Notes under the pieces: generated by a model
Databases searched by the model: none
The model's input: only the letters and a program-made list of their open reading frames with translations
Told to the model about the DNA's origin: nothing
DNA from: Bacillus sp. KH172YL63
Lineage (GTDB): Bacteria > Bacillota > Bacilli > Bacillales > Bacillaceae_B
Direction: 5' to 3'
Length of the DNA stretch: 64,000 nucleotides
NCBI RefSeq assembly: GCF_011398925.1
Contig: NZ_AP022842.1
Coordinates: 3,718,001 to 3,782,000 of the forward strand
Shown here: piece by piece, positions 37,409-59,125 of the stretch
How the letters are laid out: every line of letters starts with the position of its first letter
Numbering within the stretch: the first letter of the stretch is position 1
Program-made: the position numbers and the translations under genes

Positions 37409-37595
37409 TTTGCCTGTTGAATTTTGGGTGGATTTTGTCTGTTGAATTTAGGCTGATTTTTGACTGTTAAACTTTGAACGAATTTTAACTGTTGAATCCA
37501 AACTGATTTTTACTGTCAAACTTCAACCGAATTTTAACTGTTAAATCTAAGCTGATCTTTACCTGTCAAACTTCAACCGATTTTTAACAGGCAAC
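37409..37595. repeat. Array A: eight 13-bp quasi-palindromes at 24-25 bp pitch in the metY leader
   Basis: Units begin at 37409, 37434, 37459, 37484, 37508, 37533, 37558 and 37583; they vary around TTTGTCTGTTGAA / TTTAACTGTTAAA / TTTACCTGTCAAA, and the last (TTTAACAGGCAAC) mirrors the first (TTTGCCTGTTGAA). Linkers of about 12 bp are also related, and units 4+5 and 6+7 form a 49-50 bp higher-order duplication. The same unit flanks the transposase gene at 57.6-58.2 kb. Confidence 0.88.
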
Positions 37596-56584: not shown

Positions 56585-57163
56585 TTAATTCGTTTCAATC
56601 AAGCCGTACTTGCCATCACGTCGCTTGTATACGATATTCGTAGCGTTTGTTTCTGCATCTGTGAAAATAAAGAACGTATGACCAAGCATATTCATCTGAA
56701 GGATCGCTTCCTCGCTATCCATCGGCTTCAGATTGAACTGCTTCGTTCTTACTACTTCCGTATCGTCCTCTTCCTCCAGTTCAACGGCTGCTGCACCATT
56801 TGGAGAAACATGGTTCAGATCCTCCTGAGCCGCAAAGAACTCCTTCGGGCTGCCCTTTTCACGCATCTTGCGGTTCACCCGTGTCTTATGCTTGCGAATC
56901 TGACGCTCCAATTTATCCACTATAAGATCAATGGCCGCATACATATCCGTGTTCCGTTCCTCTGCACGAAGCACCAAATGCGGCATTGGAATAGTCACTT
57001 CAGTTTTCGTATTTTTATCAGGATACACTTTCAAATTAACATGTACATTTGCATCAGGAGTTTCATTAAAGTAACGGTCTAACTTGCCAATCTTCTTCTC
57101 CACGTGTTCGCGAATCGCTGGAGTTACCTCAATGTTCTCGCCTCGAATGTTGTAGTTCAACAT
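56585..57163 (-). CDS. hpf: Ribosome hibernation promoting factor, long form
   Basis: A 192-residue long HPF (YvyD): N-terminal beta-alpha-beta domain (about 1-100, MLNYNIRGENIEVTPAIREHVEKKIGKLDRYF) that occupies the decoding centre, a linker, and the C-terminal dimerisation domain (about 130-190, VRTKQFNLKPMDSEEAILQMNMLGH) that joins two 70S ribosomes into 100S particles in stationary phase. AGGAGGAG precedes ATG 57163, and a sigma-B promoter lies 46-71 bp upstream. Its place before the flagellar genes is as in B. subtilis. Confidence 0.96.
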   Translation of the reverse strand: MLNYNIRGENIEVTPAIREHVEKKIGKLDRYFNETPDANVHVNLKVYPDKNTKTEVTIPMPHLVLRAEERNTDMYAAIDLIVDKLERQIRKHKTRVNRKMREKGSPKEFFAAQEDLNHVSPNGAAAVELEEEDDTEVVRTKQFNLKPMDSEEAILQMNMLGHTFFIFTDAETNATNIVYKRRDGKYGLIETN

Positions 57164-57474: not shown

Positions 57475-57586
57475 TTTGTCAGTTGAATTTTGAGGGAGTT
57501 TGTCAGTTAAATAAAGGACAATATTCAACTGTCAAAATATCATCAAAGTTTAACAGTCAAATATCAAGCTAAATTCAACAGGCAAA
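57475..57586. repeat. Array B: five 13-bp quasi-palindromes at 24-25 bp pitch, downstream of the transposase gene
   Basis: Units start at 57475 (TTTGTCAGTTGAA), 57499 (TTTGTCAGTTAAA), 57524 (TTCAACTGTCAAA), 57549 (TTTAACAGTCAAA) and 57574 (TTCAACAGGCAAA): two forward and three inverted copies on one phase. The linkers are about 12 bp and unrelated. Confidence 0.88.
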
Positions 57587-57587
57587 A

Positions 57588-57620
57588 TAAAAAACCCGCT
57601 GAACACCACATCCAGCAGGC
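57588..57620 (-). terminator. Terminator of the transposase gene
   Basis: Stem CCTGCTG / CAGCGGG followed by TTTTTTATTTT on the minus strand, overlapping the edge of repeat array B. Confidence 0.75.
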
Positions 57621-57627
57621 ACACCCC

Positions 57628-58176
57628 TCACTCATTAAATTGCTTCCACCTAATCTCCACATAAAACTTATAGTGACTTTTCGACCCACCATTCATAAAA
57701 GAGAGAATCTTTTTCGTATCAACATGCTTATTTTCCCTGTTTGAAATAAATGAACGATAACTCGACCACTGATAGTTTTGTGCTTCAGCAGTGATCCCAG
57801 CTTTCACTGGGTTCAGGTGAATATAACAGCTTGTATCGATCAGCTGCTTGTTATTGCGGATGATGACTGATTTAAAACGTCCTTGAAATAGATGCCCTTG
57901 GAAGCCATTTTTCTTATTAAAATAGCGGGCGTAACGGTAATGGATGTATTGAATGATTTTGCCTGGGGGAACATCGATGGTTTCTATGAGAAGGTGAATG
58001 TGGTTCGTCATGAGGCAATAAGAGTGGAGAATAAAGGGGAACTTGTCTTTGGCTAATTCAACGATTTCCAAATACTTAAGTCGATCGGCTTTGTTGCGGA
58101 AGATGGTGTATTTTCGGTTTCCTCTTGCGGTAATGTGATAGGTATATCCAGGGGACCATTCTCTTTTTGGGGCCAT
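57628..58176 (-). CDS. REP-associated tyrosine transposase (RAYT, Y1/HUH superfamily)
   Basis: A 182-residue single-strand transposase of the IS200/REP-associated group. Landmarks are WSPGYTYHITARGNRKYTIF at the N-terminus, the metal-binding HIH of the HUH motif (59-61), the candidate catalytic Tyr segment YIHYRYARYFN (77-86), GHLFQGRFKS and YIHLNPVKAGI (118-128). AAAGGATG precedes ATG 58176. It is an intact single gene with its own terminator, bracketed by repeat arrays B and C, which fits a RAYT that processes the repeats; such genes are typically single-copy and domesticated rather than part of an insertion sequence. Confidence 0.88.
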   Translation of the reverse strand: MAPKREWSPGYTYHITARGNRKYTIFRNKADRLKYLEIVELAKDKFPFILHSYCLMTNHIHLLIETIDVPPGKIIQYIHYRYARYFNKKNGFQGHLFQGRFKSVIIRNNKQLIDTSCYIHLNPVKAGITAEAQNYQWSSYRSFISNRENKHVDTKKILSFMNGGSKSHYKFYVEIRWKQFNE

Positions 58177-58247
58177 GTCAACATCCTTTCTAGTTTTGGT
58201 CTTTCTTTATTCGACATGGGTGGAGCGAATTCCTGCTTGTAGATGAG

Positions 58248-58360
58248 TTTGTCTGTTGAAATCACGTTGATATTTAACAGGTAAACTTTTGTGATTCTTT
58301 GTCTGTTAAAAAACCGCCCAAATTCAACAGACAAATTAATCACAAAATTCAACTGACAAA
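58248..58360. repeat. Array C: five 13-bp quasi-palindromes at exact 25-bp pitch, upstream of the transposase gene
   Basis: Units start at 58248 (TTTGTCTGTTGAA), 58273 (TTTAACAGGTAAA), 58298 (TTTGTCTGTTAAA), 58323 (TTCAACAGACAAA) and 58348 (TTCAACTGACAAA). Orientation alternates but the phase is kept exactly. The first unit is identical to a unit of array A at 37434. Confidence 0.9.
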
Positions 58361-58369
58361 CAAAAACCC

Positions 58370-59125
58370 CTAAACATCCACATCCCTCCTCCCAAACACC
58401 CATCCAGCCAAACCACCAAATCCGATCAAATACACCAGAATCACCACAACCGAAAACCCAAACGTCATTCCTTCGAACGGCGGCGAACTGAAGAAATACT
58501 GCTGCAAATCAGTATTAGCGAGCAGAAGATACCTTCCCCACTCCAAACCGCGTTCGTTCATCAGTATCAATAATGTCCCGGCAGAGAATGTCAAAAAAAT
58601 GGTGGTACCGATCGCAAATGAACTGCTTCTGGTTACAGCCGACAGCGTAAAGGCAATCGAGCAGATGACGACCATTTCCAAAAACCTCAACACATAAGCC
58701 CCCGCAACGATAAAAAAGTTCACGTCCAGATCCAGGAAGCTATCATAAAACCACAGGGCACCAAGCAGGGCAGAAAATAAGAAATGACCGGCGGTGAACA
58801 CAGTCGCAATGACTAACACGGTTAAATACTTGGAAAGTAGAATCTTCATTCGGTTAGCGGGGCGGATGAGCAACAGCTTAATCGTTCCTGCTGAAAATTC
58901 GCTGGAAACAATGTCCCCTGCAATGATCAGGCAGAAGATTTGAATGACGATCAGAAGGTTGGAGCTGATCCGCATGTATTCCCAAAAGGAAAAATGGATA
59001 CCGTCGAAGAGCATGTAGACGAACAGGGATGCAACGGCATCTATGAATACGATGAGGCCAAGGGAAATCCACATGCGGGGGCGGGATATTTGTTTGATGA
59101 GTTCGTTGGTGATGAGATTGGTCAT
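58370..59125 (-). CDS. ABC-2 type transporter permease without adjacent ATPase
   Basis: A 251-residue protein with six membrane segments and the ABC-2 permease pattern (long first periplasmic loop, SSEFSAGTIKLLLIRPANRMKIL coupling helix, C-terminal GFGGLAGWVFGRRDVDV). In similar operons the ATP-binding subunit is next to it; here the neighbours are the flagellar operon and repeat array C, so the partner must be elsewhere or lost. The insert sits between fli genes and hpf, which are contiguous in B. subtilis, and may have arrived by insertion. Confidence 0.85.
   Translation of the reverse strand: MTNLITNELIKQISRPRMWISLGLIVFIDAVASLFVYMLFDGIHFSFWEYMRISSNLLIVIQIFCLIIAGDIVSSEFSAGTIKLLLIRPANRMKILLSKYLTVLVIATVFTAGHFLFSALLGALWFYDSFLDLDVNFFIVAGAYVLRFLEMVVICSIAFTLSAVTRSSSFAIGTTIFLTFSAGTLLILMNERGLEWGRYLLLANTDLQQYFFSSPPFEGMTFGFSVVVILVYLIGFGGLAGWVFGRRDVDV

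Follow-up and report, generated by a model that had tools for sequence, protein, structure and literature searches.

Comparative evidence for the joint change of a RAYT gene and its flanking 13-bp boxes at one chromosomal locus

We found that a RAYT gene (encoding a REP-associated tyrosine transposase-like HUH/Y1 protein) in a Rossellomorea-like bacterium lies between two arrays of a short palindromic box that recurs at a fixed pitch. Comparisons of related sequences give good support to the conclusion that the RAYT and its form of repeat are a matched pair, and that both change together at one locus. The window, that is, the whole stretch of DNA analyzed (64,000 nucleotides), comes from a genome of 4,251,700 bp in one contig.

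The RAYT gene and the phased arrays

The RAYT gene (57628..58176, minus strand) encodes a protein of 182 aa in which the motifs NHIH and YIHLNP are intact. Array B (57475..57586) lies between the 3' end of this gene and the hpf promoter region, and array C (58248..58360) lies between the start of the gene and the stop of a permease gene. Each array contains five 13-bp boxes. Those of array B start at 57475, 57499, 57524, 57549 and 57574 (orientations +,+,-,-,-) with a pitch of 24, 25, 25 and 25 bp. Those of array C start at 58248, 58273, 58298, 58323 and 58348 (orientations +,-,+,-,-) with a pitch of exactly 25 bp. An earlier note on this DNA had described two five-unit arrays (24-25 bp pitch in B, 25 bp in C) on both sides of a single RAYT gene, with phase kept even where orientation flips. 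The coordinates, unit and pitch were all confirmed, as was the phase. The note had also called the unit a 13-bp quasi-palindrome. This was correct and can be refined: the unit is variable, often fully symmetric, and reads about TTTRnCWGnYAAA.

Two genes are conserved anchors on either side of the replaced unit: an hpf-like gene (ribosome hibernation factor; 56585..57163, minus strand) and an ABC-transporter permease-like gene (58370..59125, minus strand). A stand-alone array, array A (37409..37595), has eight boxes at a pitch of 25 bp (one interval of 24 bp) and is flanked by two PLP-enzyme-like genes; no RAYT gene adjoins it. The gene names used here (hpf, ABC permease, murC, ileS, pheT and PLP-enzyme-like) are presumptive and were given from inspection.

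Eighteen sites in the window differ from the box at no more than one position, and all 18 are inside the three phased arrays. Forty dinucleotide shuffles of the window had a mean of 1.6 box sites and never two in phase. Across the whole genome, the two-box pattern had 24 matches compared to 0 for a reversed-pattern control. The window shuffles and the reversed-pattern control together rule out a chance origin of the phased boxes. A CRISPR-like array was also considered and set aside, as the spacers are 12 nt and the repeats are in both orientations.

Counting the 13-mer and its spacing across the genome, as the earlier note had proposed, revealed at least 12 arrays with 95 boxes and 83 intervals (a relaxed unit with at most 2 mismatches counted as a box). 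The 12 arrays read are 10 stand-alone arrays plus B and C. The interval was 25 bp in 80 of the 83 cases, 24 bp in two and 20 bp in one. TTTGWCWGTTRAA has 50 exact matches in the genome, 49 of them within the 12 arrays. Box halves are mostly TTTGnC-like or TTYAAC-like around a central A/T, and one array has as many as 14 boxes at the 25-bp pitch. The outermost boxes are + on the left and - on the right in all 12 arrays. Spacers mostly differ between units; boxes and pitch are retained. All 10 stand-alone arrays lie clear of ORFs of 90 aa or more. A GT[AG]G foot, the mark of a canonical REP, is present within 6 nt 5' of the box (on either strand) at only 6 of the 95 boxes. With B and C counted as one, 11 array sites were read, and nine of them fall between 3.15 and 4.12 Mb on the 4.25-Mb chromosome, in about a quarter of its length.

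The symmetry of the arrays alone already favors folding. As single strands, all 12 arrays folded more stably than their shuffles (z -2.7 to -8.6; 60 shuffles each), and this folding comes largely from + boxes pairing with - boxes. Together with its flanks, array B has a fold of only moderate strength (z -2.5; as low in 3 of 200 shuffles); for array C with flanks, z was -6.7. A single TTTGTCTGTTGAA box had no fold alone (0 kcal/mol), a symmetric TTTGACAGTCAAA box folds at -1.4 kcal/mol, and GC-richer box types fold at -1.5 to -3.5 kcal/mol. Because the outermost boxes are inverted and face each other, an array can fold across its center like a REPIN with many rungs.

The HUH motif and the catalytic tyrosine in Y...NP are intact in the window RAYT, and its predicted fold is that of TnpAREP (matching 4er8), which places it in the RAYT/TnpAREP family. 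It scored 75.7 bits against the NCBIfam model REP_Tyr_transpos (curated cutoff 80), all 24 aligned RAYT sequences matched this model at E 0.001 or better, and a domain search with the window RAYT (E 0.001) returned Y1_Tnp alone. The genome has one RAYT of the array lineage plus paralogues at 49% and 36% identity. That is, it does not contain the multiple near-identical transposase copies that characterize IS200/IS605, since the paralogues are only 49% and 36% identical. Neither paralogue has 25-bp arrays. The closer one (L025, G000:C1:4030095-4030610; 49%) is in a 197-aa open frame and the other (L026, G000:C1:3958156-3958566; 36%) is in a 262-aa open frame. The longer paralogue, L026, may bear the extra C-terminal domain of RAYT subclass 2.1.

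Judged by its motifs, the window RAYT leans towards this same subclass (Bertels group 1), though it is without the C-terminal domain. In the part of a 2018 survey available to us (PMC6006769), the motifs listed for subclass 2.1 are NHVH/NH[YF]H, W[EQ]/FQ and Y[IV]HLNP, which resemble NHIH, FQ and YIHLNP of the window RAYT. By letter, FQ and YIHLNP fit and NHIH is absent from the HuH variants in Table 1 of that source. Unlike the window RAYT (182 aa, no extra domain), proteins of the subclass are described there as having a median of 238 aa and an extra C-terminal domain. According to the same part of the survey, REP-like sequences were not found near genes of subclasses 2.1 and 2.3.

RAYT and box type in related genomes

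Nearly every array-lineage RAYT sampled in the genus had palindromic boxes beside it. We took the best RAYT locus per genome from 30 of 36 genomes (L106-L135); some RAYT was present in 36 of 36. At the array-lineage loci (L106-L129), a run of at least three palindromic boxes was found in 23 of 24 cases (at 50 bp in L117; the exception was L116) by a search that presupposed a CWG center. Phased boxes of the locus's own type (at most 2 mismatches) were on both sides of the gene at 19 of these 24 loci and on one side at five (L119, L121, L123, L124, L126). Locus L130 had two box-like sites by lag and none by runs. The other five (L131-L135), paralogues of ~50% identity that form a separate clade on the RAYT tree, had arrays at 0 of 5 loci; weak lag signals at L134 and L135 were unlike boxes.

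We also compared relatives in named genomes, using the best 79 loci of 321 stretches that encode a relative. Within this set the closest orthologues (71-87% identity) are from Rossellomorea and Bacillus species. All nine close orthologues have arrays of at least three boxes on both sides, as expected for the flanking repeats of a TIRtron, and no TTTG-type runs were found at the other 70 of the 79 loci. The nine orthologues and the genus loci are overlapping sets (at least two in common) and are not independent. The earlier note had held that orthologues without nearby arrays would count against a pairing of transposase and repeat. On this point the evidence is divided: every close orthologue has arrays, and the ~50%-identity paralogues have none.

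There are seven box types in the genus, which read approximately TTTRnCWGnYAAA, TTCAGCWGCTGAA, TTCACCWGGTGAA, TGTACCWGGTACA, TGAGCCWGGCTCA, TGTGCCWGGCACM and GGTGCCWGGCACC. Across types the arms change in step, and the 13-bp palindromy, the CWG center and the 25-bp pitch are kept; single boxes deviate. With arrays found by periodicity alone, palindromy was significant at 20 of the 24 loci (p at most 0.006) and had p about 0.03 at L116 and L126. The two loci without significance, L106 (the window's own; p 0.72) and L128 (p 0.23), are those at which the stack overran the array.

The longest array in a relative has 17 boxes. Arrays beside the RAYT in L119, L121 and L124 have 17, 15 and about 10 units, with spacers nearly as conserved as the boxes, which suggests recent tandem growth. 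By eye, a small ORF between array C and the RAYT gene is present only in L114 and L115 (G026 and G030), of 14 loci printed. A broken, fragmentary RAYT reading with GGTGCC-type boxes on both sides is present at G001:C27:325330-326074, and fragmentary readings are also present in several other genomes.

Boxes of the same build, but with GG..CC, lie near more distant RAYTs. This class was defined after inspection of the flanks of distant RAYTs. At 39 of 70 distant loci, GG..CC boxes lay no farther than 400 nt from the RAYT (on both sides at 16), compared to 27 of the 70 for a control area that was about twice as large and 1.6-2.4 kb away. The density was 1.34 per kb near the RAYT (75 boxes) and 0.35 per kb in the control (38 boxes). 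Neighboring GG..CC boxes were 23, 31, 39, 42, 47, 48 or (once) 118 bp apart, and none were at 25 bp. Spacings at L040, L053, L057, L059, L071, L081 and L101 were 23, 31, 39 or 47 bp, that is, in 8-bp steps; those at L073 and L100 were 42 and 48 bp.

The same neighbors, ABC permease and hpf, surround the unit at 15 of the 30 genus loci. hpf adjoins the RAYT gene at 20 of the 30 loci and at 19 of the 24 array loci. The amino acid identity is 93-100% for hpf, which was located at 20 of the 30 loci (the window's own included), and 71-84% for the permease, which was located in 14 relatives. Neither gene lies within the 1.5-kb flanks read at five array-bearing RAYTs (L119, L121, L122, L125, L126).

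Box type follows the RAYT and not these neighbors. On the RAYT tree (30 rows), box type, which we labeled ourselves with 'none' included as a type, changes 9 times (minimum 7). Shuffled labels changed a mean of 20.7 times, with 0 of 200 shuffles as low. TTTG, TTCAGC, TTCACC and TGTACC each form one clade; the TGAGCC, TGTGCC and GGTGCC labels are split (2, 3 and 2 changes). In contrast, on a tree of permease plus hpf (15 rows) there were 7 changes compared to 7.6 for shuffled labels, that is, no clustering. The permease-hpf tree rejects the RAYT clade TTTG+TTCAGC+TTCACC (p-AU 2.3e-51). A comparison of RAYT trees with repeat families, suggested in the earlier note, thus came out in favor of the pairing: the RAYT tree tracks box type, and the tree of the flanks conflicts with it.

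Pairwise identities (10 pairs compared) point the same way. The permeases of G035 (TTTG), G022 (TTCAGC) and G007 (TGTACC) are 92-93% identical and the hpf flanks are 93-96% identical, yet the RAYT proteins are only 85, 55 and 56% identical and there are three different boxes. In G003 and G029, the permeases are 93% identical, the RAYTs 74%, and the boxes differ. G003 and G007 have permeases that are 85% identical, RAYTs that are 95% identical and boxes identical in type; for G035 and G004 the figures are 92% and 97%, again with boxes identical in type. Flanks stay similar almost up to the outermost boxes (14 loci printed, judged by eye). Alike flanks around a diverged RAYT and a changed box indicate that gene and boxes are exchanged as one unit. 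The repeat-transposase pair that the earlier note had envisaged is well supported, in that RAYT and box sequence change together at a single locus.

Arrays away from the RAYT gene

Some stand-alone arrays have counterparts in relatives and others do not. Arrays with the same box type as array A lie ~22-24 kb from the RAYT gene in G003, G007 and G022, compared to about 20 kb here (orthology judged by distance and box type only). An array at the ileS site is present in the window's genome and absent in 15 of 15 relatives with a matching segment; 20 genomes gave no matching segment. The 13 other near relatives group together on the flank tree to the exclusion of the window's genome, and the ileS array may therefore be either a gain here or a single loss in the ancestor of those relatives.

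It is possible, but in our view unlikely, that the array-RAYT-array unit is a transposon whose ends have many transposase-binding boxes, with the stand-alone arrays being internally deleted, MITE-like copies. The ileS array, missing from 15 relatives, fits such an element, as do the ends of the replaced unit near the outer boxes (by eye) and the five array-bearing RAYTs that have neither hpf nor permease in their flanks. However, hpf is the neighbor at 19 of the 24 array loci, so moves of the unit would be rare, and the window's genome has a single RAYT of the array lineage (for the relatives, only the best locus per genome was taken). Furthermore, only one side of the gene is arrayed at five loci, and B and C each have the full +...- layout of a stand-alone array and so are not half-elements.

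At least two phased boxes were found at the murC site in 13 of 29 relatives read and at the pheT site in 15 of 29, two-box cases being counted without a shuffle control; at each site, 6 of the 36 genomes matched but fell outside the reading. These arrays vary in length, from 2 to 11 boxes as detected. Growth by 50 bp at a time is seen in some arrays (L145, L206). By eye, the ileS and murC arrays adjoin terminator-like hairpins with T-runs.

We counted boxes of each type outside the RAYT locus in 36 genomes (RAYT locus removed; 12 genomes without an assigned type placed among the others). Without correction for kinship, genomes with a matching RAYT had more boxes for four types: a median of 6 compared to 3 for TTTG (p 0.027; 0.072 without the window's genome), 18 compared to 4 for TTCASC (p 0.032), 45.5 compared to 17 for TGWRCC (p 0.029), and 21.5 compared to 4 for KGTGCC (p 0.007). 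The earlier note had proposed that copies might correlate with the presence of the transposase. There is such an excess, but it is modest, the matching is loose and there are clear exceptions. The maxima for TGWRCC are in G002 (151) and G010 (130), both of which have a TTCACC-type RAYT. KGTGCC reaches 64 in G010 and 42 in G011, though the RAYT fetched from each is of another type. G022 has a TTCAGC RAYT, no TTCASC box outside the locus, and 11 TTTG boxes. G003, G007 and G029 retain TTTG arrays beside RAYT units of other types; in G029 the TTTG array has 11 boxes and the RAYT unit is of the GGTGCC type. G005 has an array at pheT, and its sole RAYT match (48% identity) is off the tree. These exceptions indicate that a matching resident RAYT is not needed for upkeep of an array. 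Arrays in genomes that lack a related transposase had been named in the earlier note as evidence against the pair, and to this extent the result goes against it: arrays persist where the RAYT locus fetched is of another type. The exceptions fit replaced residents whose old arrays linger.

Persistence of arrays without a matching RAYT also fits a different proposal, namely that the boxes serve in duplex DNA as operator-like sites, with a phasing that lets dimers bind cooperatively (the RAYT as a regulator, or another host protein), and that the arrays are regulatory or chromosome-organizing. What is conserved is palindromy and a rigid register, TTTG boxes form no single hairpins, and arrays lie upstream of hpf and adjoin gene ends. 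We consider this proposal quite unlikely, as box type follows the RAYT gene and not the flanks of the host genome, and the presence of an array at the same site varies between close species. That the arrays are ordinary tandem repeats spread by slippage, with the RAYT adjacent by chance, is highly improbable: a 50-bp unit was amplified in G003 and G010 and array length changes at murC and pheT, but the boxes flanking the RAYT switch type with it (on both sides where both are arrayed) and spacers mostly differ where boxes and pitch are kept.

Relation to known systems and a possible mechanism

The system in the window is REPtron/TIRtron-like, a RAYT with its own repeat family, and is not a new kind of system. 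As in REPtrons (TnpAREP/RAYT with REP or BIME; E. coli, Stenotrophomonas, Marinomonas), a HUH/Y1 RAYT is flanked by palindromic repeats that are dispersed between genes; here, B and C are at the gene and 10 stand-alone arrays are between genes. Further features in common with REPtrons are the frequent grouping of repeats in inverted orientation, a repeat type specific to each RAYT, and the 4er8 fold. The cleavage dinucleotides given for TnpAREP in the available part of PMC8266576, CT and CA, occur in the box center (CTG/CAG).

The form of the repeat (a 13-bp box, a fixed 25-bp register and no regular GTAG foot) differs from described REPs. Unlike the repeats of REPtrons, the boxes in the window are without a regular GTAG/GTGG foot, keep a rigid 25-bp pitch with up to 14 boxes, and, for the window type, do not fold singly. 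The box is 13 bp compared to 20-50 nt for REPs in the available part of PMC8266576, which also describes a Marinomonas REP, with 10 paired nt around 4, that is close in size to the box. The earlier note had considered the layout to be unlike known REP/RAYT systems. This is true of the fixed pitch, which differs from a REP of GTAG plus hairpin, but a RAYT between copies of a dispersed repeat that belongs to it is already familiar from REPtrons and TIRtrons.

In 2013, non-REP repeats had already been recorded in groups next to RAYT-like genes (PMC3733652; part of the text available). In the TIRtrons (TIRYT) of that account, as here, a RAYT-like gene lies between non-REP inverted repeats, some self-complementary, in dimers or groups. 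The sequence GGGGWSAS, common to some TIRs in the same part of PMC3733652, is found in GGGGWCAGWCCCC boxes beside more distant RAYTs; GG..CC boxes contain it when they read GGGGWCAG. It is absent from TTTG-type boxes. Unlike the arrays here, the TIRtron repeats are described as terminal inverted repeats, and the 13-bp unit, the 25-bp register and joint replacement of gene and repeats are absent from the available part of that description. The arrays are also like REPINs (term per the available part of PMC6006769), which have inverted repeat ends around a variable interior, intergenic dispersal and a link to a RAYT, but there are two REPs in a REPIN and several phased rungs in these arrays. A literature search of titles and abstracts, with subscription journals mostly outside it, found no description of such arrays.

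We think that the REPtron-like explanation as a whole is probably correct. That is, the RAYT has its own family of 13-bp boxes and forms with them a self-matched, repeatedly replaced unit. The RAYT, as a HUH/Y1 single-strand DNA endonuclease-ligase, would most likely recognize the box by the letters of its arms, and most likely where replication forks expose single strands. If DNA were cut and rejoined at boxes or close to them, arrays could insert beside gene ends, and tandem gain or loss in 25- or 50-bp steps would change array length. At this single chromosomal site, the RAYT and its flanking boxes have been exchanged among species time and again, probably through recombination within the conserved flanks. 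We infer binding, cleavage, mobilization, the role of single strands and the agent of insertion by analogy; in particular, cutting at CT or CA in the box center and insertion driven by the RAYT would be as suggested by work on TnpAREP (PMC8266576, in the part available).

A more specific and tentative version of the REPtron-like explanation is that this is a group-1-like branch of RAYTs for which a palindrome of only 13 nt, repeated along a 25-nt ladder, serves as a minimal address. Address and protein would co-evolve as an interchangeable unit of specificity, passed between species at one locus, and older ladders in the spelling of former residents would be left behind. If so, the constant register would imply joint action of several RAYT molecules on one ladder, which they would extend or copy rung by rung.

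An exactly defined short box now stands beside each RAYT of the array lineage, which bears on what RAYTs without REPs recognize. Because there are seven natural protein-box types, several of them at the same site, specificity, strand preference and the 25-nt register are directly testable. The swaps at this locus also provide a natural record of the replacement of resident RAYTs and of the fate of the repeats they leave behind.
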